Shown in pieces: positions 23,821-64,000 of a stretch of 64,000 bases of DNA. Each line of letters opens with the position of its first letter. Position 1 is the first letter of the stretch. The DNA is from Salinibacterium sp. NG253 (GTDB lineage Bacteria; Actinomycetota; Actinomycetes; Actinomycetales; Microbacteriaceae). The position numbers and the translations under genes were made by a program. The stretch covers positions 512,208 through 576,207 of the forward strand of contig NZ_JADYWF010000002.1 in assembly GCF_015864945.1 (NCBI RefSeq), given 5' to 3'. The notes beneath the pieces are model-generated. The model saw only the letters and a program-made list of their open reading frames with translations. It made no database searches and was not told the origin of the DNA.

Positions 23821-24923
23821 CTCAACATGTCGACACCGTCGTAGTCGGGGGCGGAGCGATGGGCTCATCAACCGCCTGGAATCTTGCGCGACGCGGGAGG
23901 CCCGTTGTCCTTCTAGAGCGTTTCGCCCCAGGCCACAAAAATGGGGCTTCGCATGGCGCGACGCGCAACTTCAGCACGGGGTATGTAGACGAGGTGCACA
24001 ACTCAATGATTCATGAGTCACGACGGCTCTGGAATGAACTAGAGGATGCAACCGGAGAAACCCTTCTCGATGTTATTGGCACCGTCAACCATGGCGGAAT
24101 TGATGTGACGCGAAACGATTGGTTGAGGGAGCACGGCGTTCCCGTTGAAATGCTTGCAGCCGAAGAAGCTCACGAGCGGTGGCCGGGCATTCGATTTGCT
24201 ACTGCGGTGCAGTACATGCCGGAGGGCGCCCGGGTGCGGGCAGATGCTGCCGTGGCCGCGCTTCAGCAACAAACGGCGGCGCTAGGTGGCGTGGTGAAAC
24301 ACAACACCGAGGTGCTCAAGATAACCGTGCTCTCAGACGACGCGGTGGAAATCGTGACGGGTGACGAAACCTATATTGCGAAGACCGTCGTCGTAACGGT
24401 GGGCGCGTGGACAACGAAATTGTTGGGCGCAACAATGGCCCTTCCACAACTAGTCGTCACCCAGGAGCAGCCTGCGCATTTTCAACAACGGGATATCGCA
24501 ACGCCGTGGCCGAGTTTCAATCACGCGCCCATCGCAGGTGACTCCGATTACGACTACTGGTACTCGCCCATCTACGGCATGCTCACCCCAGGAGAAGGAA
24601 TCAAGGCCGGTTGGCACGGCGTTGGTCCGGTGACGGATCCTGATTTGCGCAGTTTCGTTCCGGAATCAGTGCAACTCGCCGCGCTACAACGCTATGCGCG
24701 TGACTGGCTGCCTGGCACGGACCCAGACGATTTCATTGCGATCAGTTGCACCTACACGACGAGTCCCAACAGCGTATTCGTGCTCGACAGGGTCGGACCA
24801 ATTGTAGTTGGTGCGGGGTTCTCGGGCCATGGGTTCAAGTTCACGCCGAGTGTGGGGCGCATTCTTGCTGACCTCGTTGATGGCACGTCACCTTCTGCGC
24901 CGGTTTTCTCGCTGGCTCGCTAA
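23817..24923 (+). CDS. FAD-dependent N-methyl amino acid oxidase, SolA/sarcosine oxidase-like
   Basis: DAO-family flavoenzyme of 368 residues. The FAD-binding motif VVVGGGAMGSSTAWNLARRG is at the N-terminus; HGATRNFSTGY resembles the flavin-attachment region of monomeric sarcosine oxidase/SolA; ISCTYTTSPNSVFVLDR and GFSGHGFKFTPSVGRILADL close the fold. It would oxidise a secondary or primary amine to an imine with H2O2 release. Substrate unknown. ATGA overlap with the ABC ATPase gene ties it to the imported ligand. Confidence 0.87.
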   Translation: MTQHVDTVVVGGGAMGSSTAWNLARRGRPVVLLERFAPGHKNGASHGATRNFSTGYVDEVHNSMIHESRRLWNELEDATGETLLDVIGTVNHGGIDVTRNDWLREHGVPVEMLAAEEAHERWPGIRFATAVQYMPEGARVRADAAVAALQQQTAALGGVVKHNTEVLKITVLSDDAVEIVTGDETYIAKTVVVTVGAWTTKLLGATMALPQLVVTQEQPAHFQQRDIATPWPSFNHAPIAGDSDYDYWYSPIYGMLTPGEGIKAGWHGVGPVTDPDLRSFVPESVQLAALQRYARDWLPGTDPDDFIAISCTYTTSPNSVFVLDRVGPIVVGAGFSGHGFKFTPSVGRILADLVDGTSPSAPVFSLAR

Positions 24924-57113: not shown

Positions 57114-59330
57114 TCAGCCCACTGAGTCGCGCGTCACATCCACCATCCACGCGTAGTTGAAGGCGCGCTCGCGCCACGCGTCGTAGCGACCGGAGACGCC
57201 GCCGTGGCCCGCCGCCATTTCGGTCTTGAGTAGAGCATCCGCCCCCACCTCGCGCAGTCGGGCAACCCATTTGGCCGGCTCGACGTAGAGCACGCGGGTG
57301 TCGTTGAGGGAGGTCACAGCGAGGATGCGCGGATAGTGGGTGTCGTGCACGTTCTCGATGGGGGAGTACGACTTCATGTAGTAGTAAACCTCCTCGTTGT
57401 GCAGGGGGTCACCCCACTCGTCCCACTCGATGACGGTCAGCGGCAGCGAGGGATCGAGGATCGAGGTGAGCGGGTCGACGAAGGGGACGACCGCGAGGAT
57501 GCCCGAGAAGAGCTGAGGGGCCAGGTTCGCGACGGCACCCATGAGCAGACCGCCGGCGCTTCCACCCTCAGCAACCAGACGATCGCTCGAGGTCACCTCG
57601 GTGTCGATGAGGTGATGGGCACACGCGACAAAGTCGGTGAACGTGTTGCGCTTGTGCAGCTTCTTGCCGCCCTCGTACCAGGTGCGGCCTAGTTCGCCAC
57701 CGCCGCGCACGTGGGCGACAGCGAACACCATGCCGCGGTCGAGCAGGCTCAGGCGGGCAGCGGTGAAGCTCGGGTCAATGCTGATTTCGTACGAACCATA
57801 GCCGTAGAGCACGGTCGGGGCCGGGGTTCCGGGCACCACGAGGTCGTTGCGGTACACGAGGGAGATCGGCACGCGCGTGCCGTCGGAGGCCGTGGCCCAC
57901 TCTCGACGCTGGGTGTACAGCGCGGGGTCAAAGCGGCCGAGCACCGGCTGCTGCTTGCGCACGACGAGCTCGTTGTTATCCACCAAGTAGTCGTAGACGA
58001 TCGTCGGAGTTACGAAACTGCCATAGCTGAGGCGGATGCTCGGCTGATTCCATTCGGGGTTGGAGCTGAGGCCCACGGTGAAAAGTTCGTCGTCGAACTT
58101 CAGTTCGTGCGGGATGTCTTCGTAGCGTCCGCCATGCTTCGGAACGATCGCAATCGCCACGCGAGTGAGACCCTCGCGGCGGTACTCGATGGCCACGAAA
58201 TCCTTGAAGGCATCCACGCCCTCGAGGCGCACGGCTTCATTGTGGGGGAGGATCACGCGGCGCTCGCCGAGGGGATCCGCCGCCGCAACGCTCACGAGCT
58301 CGAAGTTGATCGCATCCTTGTTGTGCACAATCAGTAGACGATCCTGCGTGCCAACCACCACATGCTCAACGTCGTATTCGACACCCACTTCGCGCGGCCA
58401 GACAACCTCGAACTCACCGGTTGGATCGCTCGTGTCGAGCAGCCGCGTCTCACTCGTCAGTCGCGAGCCCGCCTCGATCGCCAAATACTTGCCGCTGCGC
58501 GAACGCCCAACGCCCACCCAGAAACTCTCGTCGGGCTCATGAAAGACCTGCACCGTGGATGCCGCGGCCGTGCCCAGCTCGTAGCGCCAAACCGTATCGG
58601 GGCGCCACGCATCATCCACCGTCGTATAAAAGACGTACTTGCCCGTGGCATCCAGAAGCGCGCCGCCCGCGGTGCCCGGAATCTCGTCAGGAAGGTCATC
58701 GGCGGAGCTGAAGCGGGTGACGGTCTCGGTGTCGGAGGGACTGCTCGCGGCAGCGCTCGCCGCAGCGGCATCACCGAGCTGGCGCACGCGCAGTGTGTAG
58801 CGCTCGTCGCCTTCGATGTCGACGCCGTAAAGCAACAGGGTGCCGTCATCGCTGAGCGAGAACGAGCCGAGGCTAAAGAACTCGTGGCCCTCTGCTTCGA
58901 TGTTGTCGTCGAGAAGGATCTGCTCGCCGGGGAGTGTCGTGGGGACAGCGGGCGCATCCGCGCCAGCGTCACCAGCCACAGGCTCGCCAATCGTCGGCGG
59001 AGTCCAGTCGTCGTCACTTGCGATCGGTGCGCGGCAGTGGATCGCGTATTGCTTGCCCTCTTCGGTGCGGCTGAAATACCACCACTGGCCGCGACGAACC
59101 GGAACGCTCAGATCGGTCTCCTGAGTGCGTGCCTTGATCTCTTCAAAGATCTGCTCTTGCAACACGCTGAGGTGACTCGTGCGCGCCGCGGTGAAAGCAT
59201 TTTCGGCATGGAGATGCGCGAGGGTGGCAGGGCTCTCTTTGTCGCGCATCCACTCGTAATTATCGACGTAGTGGTCGCCATGCTGGATGCGTTCGGTAGG
59301 AACCTTTGCGGCTTCAGGTGGAGTGAGCAT
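57114..59330 (-). CDS. ptrB: Oligopeptidase B (S9A serine peptidase, protease II)
   Basis: Cytosolic prolyl-oligopeptidase-family enzyme of 738 residues that cuts short peptides after Lys/Arg. An N-terminal beta-propeller (about 70-430) is followed by the alpha/beta-hydrolase domain with nucleophile Ser in AEGGSAGGLLMG (about 590), MVFAVAHVRGGGELGRTWYE and the catalytic His in MAAGHGGVSGRYD. The family start HGDHYVDNYEWMRDKESP is intact. Leaderless ATG. Confidence 0.93.
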   Translation of the reverse strand: MLTPPEAAKVPTERIQHGDHYVDNYEWMRDKESPATLAHLHAENAFTAARTSHLSVLQEQIFEEIKARTQETDLSVPVRRGQWWYFSRTEEGKQYAIHCRAPIASDDDWTPPTIGEPVAGDAGADAPAVPTTLPGEQILLDDNIEAEGHEFFSLGSFSLSDDGTLLLYGVDIEGDERYTLRVRQLGDAAAASAAASSPSDTETVTRFSSADDLPDEIPGTAGGALLDATGKYVFYTTVDDAWRPDTVWRYELGTAAASTVQVFHEPDESFWVGVGRSRSGKYLAIEAGSRLTSETRLLDTSDPTGEFEVVWPREVGVEYDVEHVVVGTQDRLLIVHNKDAINFELVSVAAADPLGERRVILPHNEAVRLEGVDAFKDFVAIEYRREGLTRVAIAIVPKHGGRYEDIPHELKFDDELFTVGLSSNPEWNQPSIRLSYGSFVTPTIVYDYLVDNNELVVRKQQPVLGRFDPALYTQRREWATASDGTRVPISLVYRNDLVVPGTPAPTVLYGYGSYEISIDPSFTAARLSLLDRGMVFAVAHVRGGGELGRTWYEGGKKLHKRNTFTDFVACAHHLIDTEVTSSDRLVAEGGSAGGLLMGAVANLAPQLFSGILAVVPFVDPLTSILDPSLPLTVIEWDEWGDPLHNEEVYYYMKSYSPIENVHDTHYPRILAVTSLNDTRVLYVEPAKWVARLREVGADALLKTEMAAGHGGVSGRYDAWRERAFNYAWMVDVTRDSVG

Positions 59331-59397: not shown

Positions 59398-60141
59398 TTA
59401 CTCGAGGAACCCGCGCAGCAGAAGCGCAGTGCCGGCCAAGTGCTCGCTCATGGCCTGCGCCGCGGCATCCGGCCGCCCAGTGAGGATAGCGATCGCAATC
59501 TGCTCGTGTTGAGTATTCGAGTGCGCGATATTGGGCCCGAGCGAGGGGATGCTATCGAGCAACTCGTTCACGCGCATCCGCACATCGGCGATGAGCGGGG
59601 TGAGAGATGCCGAACCCGCGAGCTCGCCCACCATGAGGTGAAAGCGGGAATCGAGTCGACGGTATTCTTCATCGCTCGCAGCGTTGGCGTTGCTGAGACT
59701 CTCCCAGAGAAGTTCTCGCTCGGAGGGCGTGAGGGCGCGGCCGGCAGCAGCGCGCGCACCACCGACCTCGAGGATCTCCCGCAGCGTGAGGGTGTCTTCG
59801 ATGACTTCGGGAGTGAGCTGGCGGGCAGCCGCAACAGGGTCGCCCGAGGCGGTTCCAGGAGTGTGCGTGGGGAGAGTTTCGCTGACGAAGGTGCCACCAT
59901 AGCGACCGCGACGAGACACCAGATAGCCAGCGTCGCTCAGTGAGGCGATGGCGTCCCGAACGGTGTCTCTGCTGACGGAGAGCATCGTGGCGAGCTCACG
60001 TTCGGCAGGCAATCGCTCTCCGGGAGCGACTAAGCCGAGGCGCACTGTCTGGAGGAGTCGCTGAACGGTCTCCTCGAAAGAGTTGCCCCCGCGCACCGGG
60101 CGCAGCAGCAACTCTCCGTGGAGACCGGTCGGCTCATCCAT
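59398..60141 (-). CDS. GntR family regulator, FadR/FCD subfamily
   Basis: Regulator of 247 residues. The winged HTH (about 22-90) contains PGERLPAERELATMLSVSRDTVRDAI and GYLVSRRGRYGGTFV; the FCD ligand domain (about 115-240) contains REILEVGGARAAA, a mid-helix HLMV histidine and HEQIAIAI. Last gene of the gamma-glutamylation operon; its ATG shares one base with the SDR stop, so it is co-expressed and probably senses the pathway substrate. Confidence 0.88.
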   Translation of the reverse strand: MDEPTGLHGELLLRPVRGGNSFEETVQRLLQTVRLGLVAPGERLPAERELATMLSVSRDTVRDAIASLSDAGYLVSRRGRYGGTFVSETLPTHTPGTASGDPVAAARQLTPEVIEDTLTLREILEVGGARAAAGRALTPSERELLWESLSNANAASDEEYRRLDSRFHLMVGELAGSASLTPLIADVRMRVNELLDSIPSLGPNIAHSNTQHEQIAIAILTGRPDAAAQAMSEHLAGTALLLRGFLE

Positions 60142-60929
60142 TACAGCGGTGTTGTGTAGGCGGAGCTGATTCCGCCATCGACAATGAACGTCGACGCGGT
60201 GATGAATGACGAGTCATCGCTGGCGAGGAATGCAACGGCGGCGGCGAGTTCGTCAGCTTCAGCGAAGCGTCCCATGGGGATGTGGACGAGACGGCGAGCG
60301 GCACGTTCAGGATCCTTCGCAAAGAGCTCTTGGAGGAGGGGAGTGCTCGTGGGGCCGGGGCAGAGTGCATTGACTCGAATTCCCTCCCGGGCGAACTGCA
60401 CGCCCAACTCACGGCTCATCGCCAGCACGCCACCCTTAGATGCCGTGTATGAAATCTGGCTGGTCGCCGATCCCATGATAGCGACGAAGGATGCCGTGTT
60501 AATGATCGAGCCCTTGCCCTGGGCGACCATGTGGCGAAGCGCGGCGCGGCAGCAGAGGTACACCGACTTGAGGTTGACGTCTTGCACTTTCTCCCACGCG
60601 GGCAATTCGGTGGTGACGATTGAGTCGTCCTCGGGCGGTGAGATTCCAGCGTTGTTGAAGGCGATGTCGACTGACCCGTAGGTGCTCGCGGTGGTGTCGA
60701 AGAGCTCATTGACCTGCGCTTCATCCGTCACATTGACCTTGATGAAGTGGCCGCCCACGAGCTCAGCGGCCGCGAGCCCCGTTGTCTCATCCATGTCACC
60801 GATGATGACGGTCGCACCTTCGGCGGCGAAACGACGTGCGGTAGCAAGACCGATACCGCTCGCTCCGCCGGTGATGACGGCGACCTTGCCAGCGAGGCGC
60901 TGTGTGAGGTCAATAGGGGTGATGCTCAT
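60141..60929 (-). CDS. SDR family dehydrogenase (3-oxoacyl-ACP reductase-like) of the gamma-glutamylation operon
   Basis: Classical SDR of 262 residues: AVITGGASGIGLATARRFA (cofactor), IGDMDET after strand 2, AFNNAGIS, Ser in INTASFVAI, and YTASKGG (YxxxK). AAGGAG precedes the ATG. In this operon an alcohol-to-aldehyde step on a gamma-glutamylated amino alcohol would be a fitting role; the 3-oxoacyl-ACP name is only a family label. Confidence 0.87.
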   Translation of the reverse strand: MSITPIDLTQRLAGKVAVITGGASGIGLATARRFAAEGATVIIGDMDETTGLAAAELVGGHFIKVNVTDEAQVNELFDTTASTYGSVDIAFNNAGISPPEDDSIVTTELPAWEKVQDVNLKSVYLCCRAALRHMVAQGKGSIINTASFVAIMGSATSQISYTASKGGVLAMSRELGVQFAREGIRVNALCPGPTSTPLLQELFAKDPERAARRLVHIPMGRFAEADELAAAVAFLASDDSSFITASTFIVDGGISSAYTTPL

Positions 60930-60962
60930 TCGGTGCTCCTTGAGTAGGAAGGGGTGATTTTG

Positions 60963-62324
60963 TCAGTCGACGGCGATGAAAACATTTTTGGTTTCGGTGA
61001 AGTTCAGTGGAGCATCCGGGCCGAGTTCGCGGCCGAGACCGGACTGCTTGAAGCCACCGAACGGGGTGGAGTACCGCACGGAGGAGTGCGAGTTGACCGA
61101 CAGGTTGCCGGCTTCGACGCCACGAGAAACGCGGATGGCGCGGCTGACATCGCGAGTCCAGATGGAGCCCGAGAGCCCATACTCAGAATCGTTGGCCAAC
61201 TGCAGCGCATCGGACTCGTCATCGAACGGGAGCACCGTCACTACCGGCCCGAAAATCTCATCGGTCACGCAACGGTCGCTGCGTGACTCTGGGGTCAGCA
61301 CTGTAGGCGCGAACCAGAAGCCGGGGCCGTCGGGCGCACTGCCGCGGAACGCGACGGGCGCATCCGCCGGAACGTAGGACTGTACTGACGCCAAGTGCTT
61401 GGCGGAGACCAACGGCCCCATTTCGGTCGCTTCGTCATGGGGGTCACCAACGCGCACGCCAGCAACGGCAGGCTCGAGAAGCTCCATAAAGCGGTCGTAG
61501 GCGCTGCGTTCGACGAGGATGCGGCTGCGGGCGCAGCAATCCTGGCCCGCGTTTTCGAAGACTCCGTAGGGTGCCGCGGCGGCAGCCTTCTCTAGGTCGG
61601 CATCCGCGAACACGATGTTGGCACTCTTGCCGCCGAGCTCGAGCGTGACGCGCTTTACTTGGTCAGCGCAGCCGGCCATGATCTGCTTGCCCACGGCGGT
61701 CGACCCGGTGAAGACAACTTTGCGCACCGTGGGGTTGGTCACGAAGCGCTCGCCGACGACGGACCCCTTGCCGGGCAGAACTTGGAACAGTCCTTCGGGC
61801 AGTCCAGCTTCGAGAGCGAGTTCGCCCAGCCGGATGCTCGTGAGTGGCGTCCACTCGGCGGGCTTCAGCACCACGGCATTGCCCGCTGCGAGGGCCGGAG
61901 CGAATCCCCACGCCGCGATCGTCATCGGAAAGTTCCACGGCGTAATCACGCCAACAACGCCGAGCGCCTCGTGGAAGGTGAGGTTGATACCGCCAGCGAC
62001 GGGAATCTGCTGGCCGAACATCCGCTCGGGGGCCGCAGCGTAATAGTTGAGAACGTCGCGCACATGGCCGGCTTCCCACCGAGCCTGAGAGATCGGATGC
62101 CCGGAGTTGCTGACCTCCAGCGAGGCAAGATTCTCGAGGTCGCCGTCTACTGTCTGCGCGAAGCGACGCAACAGGAGCGCCTTGTCGGCGGGGGAGACGC
62201 GAGCCCATGCCTTCTGGGCGACGGCCGCGCGGGCGATTGCCGCATCCGTCGCTTCGATATCGAGCAGATCGACAGAGCCGATCTCGGCCTCAGTTGCGGG
62301 GTTGATGACGGTGTAGGTGCTCAC
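60963..62324 (-). CDS. Aldehyde dehydrogenase, PuuC-like
   Basis: NAD(P)+-dependent aldehyde dehydrogenase of 453 residues. GVITPWNFPMTIAAWG, GSTAVGKQIM, VTLELGGKSANIVFADADL (general base Glu) and GQDCCARSRILVE (catalytic Cys) are all present. It is slightly short at the N-terminus relative to 480-residue relatives. It probably oxidises a gamma-glutamyl aldehyde to the acid. ATGA overlap with the upstream amidase gene; 33 bp separate it from the SDR gene. Confidence 0.88.
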   Translation of the reverse strand: MSTYTVINPATEAEIGSVDLLDIEATDAAIARAAVAQKAWARVSPADKALLLRRFAQTVDGDLENLASLEVSNSGHPISQARWEAGHVRDVLNYYAAAPERMFGQQIPVAGGINLTFHEALGVVGVITPWNFPMTIAAWGFAPALAAGNAVVLKPAEWTPLTSIRLGELALEAGLPEGLFQVLPGKGSVVGERFVTNPTVRKVVFTGSTAVGKQIMAGCADQVKRVTLELGGKSANIVFADADLEKAAAAAPYGVFENAGQDCCARSRILVERSAYDRFMELLEPAVAGVRVGDPHDEATEMGPLVSAKHLASVQSYVPADAPVAFRGSAPDGPGFWFAPTVLTPESRSDRCVTDEIFGPVVTVLPFDDESDALQLANDSEYGLSGSIWTRDVSRAIRVSRGVEAGNLSVNSHSSVRYSTPFGGFKQSGLGRELGPDAPLNFTETKNVFIAVD

Positions 62325-63064
62325 GCGAGAGCCTTTCGGTAGTGGCGGGCCGCTTCAACGAGACCCTCGAACAGTCGGATGTCTTCTGGCGCTGCCTCGG
62401 GATGCCATTGCACGGCAACAACGAAGGTTGCCGACGGTAGTTCGACAGCTTCAATAACGTCGTCGCTCGTGCGTGCCGTGACGACGAGTCCGTCGGCGAG
62501 GCGATCGATTGACTGATGGTGGTAGAGGGGCACGACGAGGGGGTCGGTTTGCCCGCCGAGCACCTGATCGATCTGCGAATCGGCTTCGATGGCGACGGGA
62601 AGGTGGCTGAAGTTGCCGCCACCTAGTTGATAGTTTCCGTGGCCGACGACTTCAGGAAGGTGCTGGTGAAGGGTGCCACCGAGAGCAACATTGAGCACTT
62701 GAGCACCCCGACAAATGCCGAGGAATGGCAGGTCGGCATCGAGTGCTTGGCGCATGAGCTCGTCTTCCCACGCATCACGATCGAGTCGAGGTTCGTCGGT
62801 TGTCGGGTGGGGTTCTTGGCCATAGCGCGCTGGGTCGAAGTCTTTGCCCCCGGTGATGATGAGGCCGTCGAGCCCCTGAAGCACCCGGCGGGCAATTTCT
62901 GGGCTTACCGGCTGCGGCGGAAGAAGCACCGCGATACCGCCAGCGCGAGTGACAGCCTCGAAGTAGGCCTTCGGCAAAAACGCTGCCGGAACATCCCACA
63001 CGCCCGTTTGCGCTTGTTCGAGGTAGGTGGTCAGGCCGATAAGGGGCCGATCAGAGTCGCTCAA
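62321..63064 (-). CDS. Gamma-glutamyl-gamma-aminobutyrate hydrolase family protein, PuuD-like
   Basis: Class I glutamine-amidotransferase-like hydrolase of 247 residues. Nucleophile Cys in LPFLGICRGAQVLNVALGG, His-Glu of the triad in VVAVQWHPEA. PuuD releases glutamate from the oxidised gamma-glutamyl product. The start overlaps the end of the GS-like gene by 14 nt, indicating translational coupling. Confidence 0.9.
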   Translation of the reverse strand: MSDSDRPLIGLTTYLEQAQTGVWDVPAAFLPKAYFEAVTRAGGIAVLLPPQPVSPEIARRVLQGLDGLIITGGKDFDPARYGQEPHPTTDEPRLDRDAWEDELMRQALDADLPFLGICRGAQVLNVALGGTLHQHLPEVVGHGNYQLGGGNFSHLPVAIEADSQIDQVLGGQTDPLVVPLYHHQSIDRLADGLVVTARTSDDVIEAVELPSATFVVAVQWHPEAAPEDIRLFEGLVEAARHYRKALA

Positions 63065-64000
63065 AGCCGCGCACCTTTTCCCAGTCAGTCACTGCCGAGT
63101 CAAAGGCAGCCAATTCGATAGCGGCGTAGTTGAGGTAGTGGTCGACTACTTCATCGCCGAACGCTTCGCGGGCGAAAGTGGATGCCGCGAAGAGTTCTGT
63201 AGCTTCCCGCAGTGACGAAGGCACCCGAGGAACATCGCTCGTGTACGCGTTGCCTTCGAAGGCATCGTCGAGCTCAAGCTCGTTGTCGATGCCGTAGAGC
63301 CCAGCGGCGATGAGGGCGCTGACGGCCAAATACTGGTTTACGTCGCCGCCAGGAACGCGGTTCTCGACCCGCATTCCGTGTCCTTGGCCAACGACTCGAA
63401 GCGCACACGTGCGGTTGTCGAGGCCCCATGCCAGCGCCGTCGGGGCAAAGCTTCCCGGAACGTAGCGCTTGTAGGAGTTGATGTTGGGAGCGGAGAAGAG
63501 CGTGAGTTCGCGCATGACCGCGAGCTGGCCGGCAATAAAGTGACGGAACATTTTTGACATGCCGTGTTCGGCATCCTTATCGGCAAAGACGGCGGTTCCG
63601 TCTGTTCCGCGCAGGCTGATGTGGATGTGACAGCTATTGCCTTCCTTCTCGTTGTACTTTGCCATGAAGGTGAGGCTCTTGCCGTGCGCATCGGCGATTT
63701 CCTTCGCGCCATTCTTGTAGATCGAGTGGTTGTCGCACGTGTCGAGGGCTGAGGCGTAGCGGAAGCCGATCTCTTGCTGGCCAGGGTTGCACTCGCCCTT
63801 CACTCCTTCGCAGTACATGCCGGCGCCATCCATGCCGTTGCGGATGTCGCGAAGCAGCGGTTCCATGCGCGTCGACGCCAGCACGTTGTAGTCGATGTTG
63901 TAGTCGGTGGCTGCTGAAAGCTCGCGATAGCCCTTCTTCCACGCCTCGCGGTAACTGTCATCAAAGACGATGAATTCGAGTTCAGTGGCAACGAAAGTGT
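63051..64000 (-). CDS. Glutamine synthetase family gamma-glutamyl-amine ligase (partial; N-terminus outside window)
   Basis: C-terminal 316 or so residues of a class I-III GS fold. ATELEFIVFDDSY carries metal-binding Glu residues, ANINSYKRYVPGSFAPT and NRTCALRVVG match the GS ATP/glutamate signature, and NSCHIHISLRG holds the catalytic His region. Because it heads an operon with a PuuD-like hydrolase and aldehyde dehydrogenase, it more likely makes gamma-glutamyl-amines (PuuA/GlnA3/GlnA4 style) than glutamine. The start lies right of the window. Confidence 0.85.
   Translation of the reverse strand, partial: TFVATELEFIVFDDSYREAWKKGYRELSAATDYNIDYNVLASTRMEPLLRDIRNGMDGAGMYCEGVKGECNPGQQEIGFRYASALDTCDNHSIYKNGAKEIADAHGKSLTFMAKYNEKEGNSCHIHISLRGTDGTAVFADKDAEHGMSKMFRHFIAGQLAVMRELTLFSAPNINSYKRYVPGSFAPTALAWGLDNRTCALRVVGQGHGMRVENRVPGGDVNQYLAVSALIAAGLYGIDNELELDDAFEGNAYTSDVPRVPSSLREATELFAASTFAREAFGDEVVDHYLNYAAIELAAFDSAVTDWEKVRGFERL

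Follow-up and report, generated by a model that had tools for sequence, protein, structure and literature searches.

A glnA4-type operon of Salinibacterium sp. NG253 and its probable role in ethanolamine catabolism by glutamate tagging

The right end of a 64,000-nucleotide stretch of the 2.97 Mb genome of Salinibacterium sp. NG253 (the window, C2:512208-576207; positions without a prefix are in window numbering) carries five genes whose combination raises the question of which compound they serve to degrade. A glutamine synthetase-like ligase, a PuuD-like hydrolase and an aldehyde dehydrogenase recall the glutamate tagging of the Escherichia coli Puu pathway; however, these genes are accompanied by a short-chain dehydrogenase/reductase (SDR) instead of the amine oxidase PuuB, and by a FadR-type regulator. 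Our analysis, which followed the right flank through L005 (20 kb) and L006 (12 kb) to approximately 24 kb beyond the window edge, indicates that this operon very probably serves the catabolism of ethanolamine via glutamate tagging, as judged by orthology with a Streptomyces cluster. The gene order proposed in a first-pass annotation was borne out, and all five genes lie where that annotation had placed them:

63051-64000 (truncated at the window edge), minus strand: glutamine synthetase-like ligase, GlnA4 orthologue (gamma-glutamylethanolamide synthetase); Gln-synt_C, 345.8 bits
62321-63064, minus strand: PuuD-like class C26 hydrolase, proposed gamma-glutamylglycine hydrolase; Peptidase_C26, 220.1 bits
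60963-62324, minus strand: aldehyde dehydrogenase, proposed gamma-glutamyl-aminoacetaldehyde dehydrogenase; Aldedh, 516.5 bits
60141-60929, minus strand: SDR (adh_short_C2), proposed gamma-glutamylethanolamide dehydrogenase (alcohol to aldehyde); NF004713, 491.6 bits; PDB 4wec
59398-60141, minus strand: GntR/FCD (FadR-type) regulator, EpuRI orthologue, proposed repressor; Pfam GntR and FCD
right of the window, about 0.2 kb from the ligase, plus strand: divergent APC permease; TIGR00908, 343.2 bits

The Pfam assignments of all five operon genes exceed the gathering cut-offs. The reading frames overlap by 14 bases between ligase and hydrolase, by 4 between hydrolase and aldehyde dehydrogenase and by 1 between SDR and regulator, with a gap of 33 bases between aldehyde dehydrogenase and SDR; this spacing is operon-like, and the five genes are one tight minus-strand operon.

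The relevant precedent is that of Streptomyces coelicolor, whose GlnA4 (SCO1613) is reported to glutamylate ethanolamine specifically in vitro (product gamma-glutamylethanolamide, Km for ethanolamine 0.47 mM), to be required by liquid cultures growing on this substrate and to be repressed by EpuRI (SCO1614), SCO1611, SCO1612 and SCO1615 being proposed for the three steps that follow the ligase (PMC6529630). The cluster figure of the same paper comprises a short-chain dehydrogenase, an aldehyde dehydrogenase, glnA4, the regulator, a putative ethanolamine transporter and a glutamine amidotransferase; S. coelicolor itself is described as having no transporter in its cluster, the putative ethanolamine transporter being found in other Streptomyces (PMC6529630). 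We anchored this cluster by locating its published single primers, with at most three mismatches, in 11 Streptomyces-type loci picked from the best 80 relatives of our ligase locus. The glnA4 reverse primer falls within the ligase in 11/11 loci, the sco1614 reverse primer is found in nine (in eight inside the regulator match, in L125 80 bases outside it) and the sco1612 dw primer in ten (nine within the aldehyde dehydrogenase, one, in L113, within the SDR with three mismatches), while the remaining primers were rarely found (glnA4 forward in one, sco1614 forward in three and sco1612 up in three of the 11). The anchors cover the ligase, the regulator and the aldehyde dehydrogenase; the SDR SCO1611 is unanchored. 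At these loci the ligase is 63-67% identical to ours, the SDR 71-78%, the regulator (the gene bearing the SCO1614 primer sites) 46-51% and the C26 hydrolase 46-50%, the latter being present in 10/11 loci, with the eleventh (L119) starting too near the cluster. By sequence comparison, the operon is orthologous to the glnA4 ethanolamine cluster SCO1610-SCO1615 (PMC6529630). Given that the published primers fall in the ligase, regulator and aldehyde dehydrogenase of the matched loci, the four-enzyme path of ligation, SDR oxidation, aldehyde oxidation and PuuD-like release, which had been proposed from gene order, coincides with the path that PMC6529630 predicts for S. coelicolor. The pathway is, in other words, already known from Streptomyces, and what we describe is a new example in a Salinibacterium-like organism.

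The properties of the ligase are consistent with this assignment. Its complete frame comprises 462 amino acids from the first possible start and extends 418-439 bases beyond the window, depending on the start codon, the probable start being, as judged by eye, the ATG at L005:8625 that is preceded by a GAGGAG site; among named relatives Salinibacterium sp. SWN167 is the nearest, its ligase being 99% identical. The GlnA4 residues for metals, glutamate and nucleotide (ATP) are preserved, and at the two marker positions where S. coelicolor GlnA4 has E269 and F331 in place of ammonium-site residues our ligase has E266 and F331 (numbered from the first possible start), the equivalent positions in the three other glutamine synthetase-family proteins of the genome being N/E (GlnA), P/E and G/L (an adjacent second ligase). 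An AlphaFold2 model (mean pLDDT 86, pTM 0.90) finds its best structural match in 5dm3, the Chromohalobacter salexigens protein Csal_0679 (Z 50.4, root-mean-square deviation 1.4, 374 aligned residues, 46% identity), which ties with 11zs from Brucella (Z 49.9, deviation 1.6, 420 aligned, 48% identity), and the subsequent matches are glutamine synthetases with Z 46 and about 30% identity. A ranking of PDB matches by sequence only gives 11zs 453 bits, 5dm3 417 and the next entry 159. We infer that 5dm3 is an ethanolamine ligase, since Csal_0679 is numbered beside Csal_0678, a homologue of ethanolamine-binding proteins. The entry 11zs, a 2026 structure entitled glutamine synthetase from Brucella melitensis, stands level with 5dm3 and ahead of the remaining glutamine synthetases listed; it may be an ethanolamine ligase as well.

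The grouping of these genes recurs well beyond Salinibacterium. A profile of 21 ligases searched against genome contigs yielded at least 592 confirmed loci, of which the best 80 were kept (3-19 kb long; 79/80 labelled Actinobacteria), and 65 of these have full flanks, with at least 6 kb to the right and at least 4 kb to the left. Within this full-flank set the SDR is present in 64, the aldehyde dehydrogenase in 62, a C26 hydrolase in at least 60 (a lower bound, as L108 carries one just beyond the examined stretch), the regulator in 48 and the permease in 30. Since the SDR and the aldehyde dehydrogenase of 64/65 and 62/65 relatives, respectively, lie downstream of the ligase and on its strand, the grouping is beyond chance. 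A census of the host's order leads in the same direction: 35 of its 149 genomes have a ligase match at E <=1e-60, and after setting aside five matches that are only 42-48% identical, 30 remain with at least 57% identity. The SDR occurs in 29 of these 30 (29/35 if all matches are kept), with 5 kb or less between the two genes in 28 of the 29, and in just one of the 119 remaining genomes, which is 62% complete. Nine Mycobacterium/Mycolicibacter loci (L076, L082, L083, L085, L086, L091, L094, L095 and L097) keep the four enzymes with neither regulator nor permease nearby, as if internal ethanolamine were recycled; these loci would correspond to Rv2857c-Rv2860c of M. tuberculosis.

The identity of the SDR is where the database name and the genomic context diverge. 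The protein passes the cut-off (404 bits) of NCBIfam NF004713, a family named 3-oxoacyl-ACP reductase, its motifs TGGASGIG and YTASK are present by eye, and an acidic residue after strand 2, likewise judged by eye, suggests NAD as cofactor. The family name gives some ground for thinking that the SDR might be an unrelated fatty-acid-type reductase that stands here by accident; the co-occurrence of SDR and ligase in the order, and their proximity, make this the least probable of the alternatives by our estimate, with next to no weight left to it. Because the distribution of close SDR homologues over the 149 genomes follows that of the ligase nearly one for one, it is rather the name of NF004713 that is probably wrong.

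Whether the operon might act on a polyamine or on another amino alcohol depends on the permease and on a possible oxidase, both of which had been proposed as checks to be made to the right of position 64000. There we found a relative of ethanolamine permeases and no PuuB-like oxidase within 24 kb. The best model for the divergent permease is TIGR00908 (ethanolamine permease) with 343.2 bits; the polyamine antiporter models give this protein at most 82 bits, and a polyamine permease was rejected on this ground. When the permeases of ten relatives were tested against TIGR00908, seven passed with 474-551 bits (Actinophytocola, Kribbella, Nocardiopsis, Saccharopolyspora and three Streptomyces), whereas the other three, from Agromyces, Mycobacterium barrassiae and Nocardioides, reach 335-343 bits, like our own; in both groups permease and ligase stand on opposite strands, with the permease upstream of the ligase and, in Streptomyces, the regulator in the middle. 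Our permease shares 38-41% identity with its counterparts in the Streptomyces-like group and appears to form a sister clade of the ethanolamine permeases, with ethanolamine as its putative substrate. As for oxidases, a search for the DAO family over the whole genome returned 27 places, and the operon itself and the stretch from there to C2:600000 are free of them, so that the proposed absence of a linked PuuB holds. Five of the 27 places span nearly the whole domain, all of them away from the operon; three of these five proteins score below the cut-offs for aminophosphonate oxidoreductase, N-methyltryptophan/sarcosine oxidase and D-amino-acid dehydrogenase, and three DAO proteins of the genome used as queries gave no match at 1e-8 in the best-80 loci. 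One DAO-family oxidase lies in the window itself, at 23832-24875, and is nearest to N-methyltryptophan/sarcosine oxidase models, below their cut-offs.

The first-pass proposal of an amino-alcohol (ethanolamine-like) route is supported by the glnA4 orthology, the ethanolamine-permease relative and the lack of a linked PuuB, and yet several observations weigh against it or loosen it. The permease falls below the curated TIGR00908 cut-off of 381.75 bits, which makes it a relative rather than a member of that equivalog; the five full-length DAO proteins elsewhere in the genome leave room for an unlinked PuuB-like partner; the substrates of the SDR, the aldehyde dehydrogenase and the C26 hydrolase are predictions, in Streptomyces too; and the chemistry from ligase to hydrolase is read in this organism from its genes. 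These points feed two alternatives. The same chemistry might act on another amino alcohol, namely 3-aminopropanol, alaninol, 1-amino-2-propanol or a mixture, and yield beta-alanine or alanine instead of glycine, as the low scores of the four permeases (ours and those of Agromyces, M. barrassiae and Nocardioides) and the breadth of the SDR, aldehyde dehydrogenase and C26 families would allow. The seven relatives whose permeases pass the cut-off nevertheless carry ligases 63-69% and SDRs 71-75% identical to ours, and the reported ethanolamine specificity of S. coelicolor GlnA4 (PMC6529630) speaks against it as well, so that we regard this alternative as unlikely. A polyamine route of the Puu type, with an unlinked FAD oxidase in the role of PuuB and some other function for the SDR, would account for the shared C26 hydrolase, aldehyde dehydrogenase and glutamine synthetase-like ligase; however, the three enzymes fall far below the curated Puu models (the gamma-glutamylputrescine synthetase model PuuA gives 194.5 bits where its cut-off is 650, PuuC 354 where it is 850 and PuuD 87 where it is 266), and the three DAO queries are without relatives in neighborhoods that keep the SDR almost without exception. 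We rejected the Puu pathway on these scores and the lack of a linked oxidase, and grant its unlinked variant only a very slight chance. The canonical eut pathway (EutBC, microcompartment) was likewise rejected: EutB (PF06751) has 0 matches in the genome, E. coli being the only positive among 14 control genomes.

In the favored route, that of ethanolamine, the divergent permease just beyond the window would import ethanolamine, the GlnA4-type ligase would couple it to the gamma-carboxyl of glutamate at the expense of ATP, the SDR would convert the alcohol end to an aldehyde and the aldehyde dehydrogenase would convert the latter to gamma-glutamylglycine, from which the C26 hydrolase, in whose sequence the Cys and the His-Glu are present by eye, would liberate glycine and regenerate glutamate. 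Glycine cleavage would then liberate ammonia, which is feasible given that GcvP is present in the genome. The FCD regulator would repress the operon, probably by way of a dyad between ligase and permease.

This dyad, AATGGT-N10-ACCATT at C2:576651-576672, lies 25-47 bases upstream of the ATG of the ligase; no other place in the genome matches WWTGGT-N10/11-ACCAWW. In the best-80 set, 60 loci have the regulator no more than 6 kb away, and 38 of them carry the dyad ahead of the ligase, compared to 0/16 of the loci that have no regulator in this range (2/4 in loci too short to tell), when scored as at least 9/12 positions with GGT and ACC both intact and at most 180 bases upstream of the ligase match; the same rule finds it in 2/320 coding stretches and in 0-4/80 loci across 20 shuffles. 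The dyad was chosen from four Microbacteriaceae loci and the scoring rule was set after the scores were known, so that the score on Microbacteriaceae is partly circular; without the 25 loci listed under this family the counts are 19/36 with the regulator versus 0/16 without it, loci being taken throughout as independent irrespective of kinship, so that Fisher values computed from these counts fall short of true probabilities. An independent set, 26 of 30 loci taken from the ligase search of the host's order and unused in choosing the dyad (excluded were our locus, a further locus of 48% identity and two that lie at contig edges), has it in 9/26, compared to a mean of 0.16 and a maximum of 2 over 50 shuffles. 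A promoter scan of the region gives one site per strand, with 0.2 expected from shuffles, and a generic palindrome screen returned chiefly G+C-rich noise and clade-specific repeats. Other results count against the dyad as operator. The reversed pattern, used as a control, likewise matches once in the genome, so that the weight of the dyad rests on its conservation; 22 of the 60 regulator-bearing relatives are without it upstream of the ligase; and at least 25 of the 26 independent-set genomes have the regulator gene, yet 17 of these loci are without the dyad, which disfavors a universal operator. Moreover, the dyad was predicted to stand before the regulator wherever the regulator is the first gene, and this largely failed (1/6 loci), and the dyad is not covered by the promoter-like site of the ligase strand, which is located about 63 bases farther upstream. 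Gel shifts of EpuRI on the glnA4 promoter have been published, and the examined text of that paper gives no binding motif (PMC8998196). The dyad may, on this evidence, be a candidate operator of the operon, possibly a new one.

Set against known systems, the operon shares with the Streptomyces cluster an orthologous ligase, aldehyde dehydrogenase and FCD regulator, together with an SDR and an amidotransferase-type hydrolase, but differs in layout, the hydrolase following the ligase and the regulator coming last here, whereas in the Streptomyces loci regulator and hydrolase are divergent and upstream of the ligase. With the canonical eut pathway it would have in common the substrate; EutB is absent from the genome, and no free acetaldehyde is to be expected. 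The proteobacterial counterparts, of EtoX type, follow the same glutamylation logic with a related ligase: the C. salexigens ethanolamine operon, for which glutamylation steps are proposed too, has an iron-dependent dehydrogenase (PF00465) and a formylglutamate-type amidohydrolase (PF05013), listed beside SCO1611/SCO1615 (PMC9397018, Table 2), and the Phaeobacter operon is induced by phosphorylethanolamine and has a TRAP importer (PMC10132767). PF00465 and PF05013 are not in our operon, which has adh_short_C2 and Peptidase_C26 and an APC permease, so that two of the four enzymes and the importer come from other families while the actinobacterial and C. salexigens versions share the ligase and aldehyde dehydrogenase families. 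We give somewhat better than even chances to the joint proposal that the actinobacterial and the proteobacterial routes were put together independently, the former with SDR and C26 hydrolase replacing the iron dehydrogenase and the formylglutamate-type amidohydrolase, that NF004713 is really a gamma-glutamylethanolamide dehydrogenase family, and that one FCD repressor switches the operon at a dedicated AATGGT-N10/11-ACCATT site.

The surroundings of the operon hold two further features. Directly to its left, a 738-amino-acid frame at 57114-59330 on the ligase strand is prolyl oligopeptidase-like by eye. To the right of the window stands the cluster of the adjacent second ligase:

L005:11478-19921 and L006:639-7369 (C2:579478-595369): second glutamine synthetase-like ligase cluster

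This cluster comprises a class-I amidotransferase, a pyridoxal phosphate-dependent decarboxylase, a P450, an acetoacetate-decarboxylase-like protein and an APC permease, and continues with an aldehyde dehydrogenase nearest to HpaE (below cut-off), a LigB dioxygenase and an FAA hydrolase; it could encode an aromatic amine route that combines glutamate tagging with ring cleavage. Its ligase appears in just L047 among the best-80 ligase loci.

Ethanolamine is an abundant fragment of membrane lipids, and the operon described here would represent a route for its use that is free of EutBC and is found across many Actinobacteria. This route would also explain a gene set that is easily mislabeled, the ligase as a glutamine synthetase and the SDR as a fatty-acid reductase. 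Within the open-licence literature surveyed, the actinobacterial SDR and hydrolase steps stand as predictions rather than assays, and the proposed operator would render the regulation of the operon directly testable.

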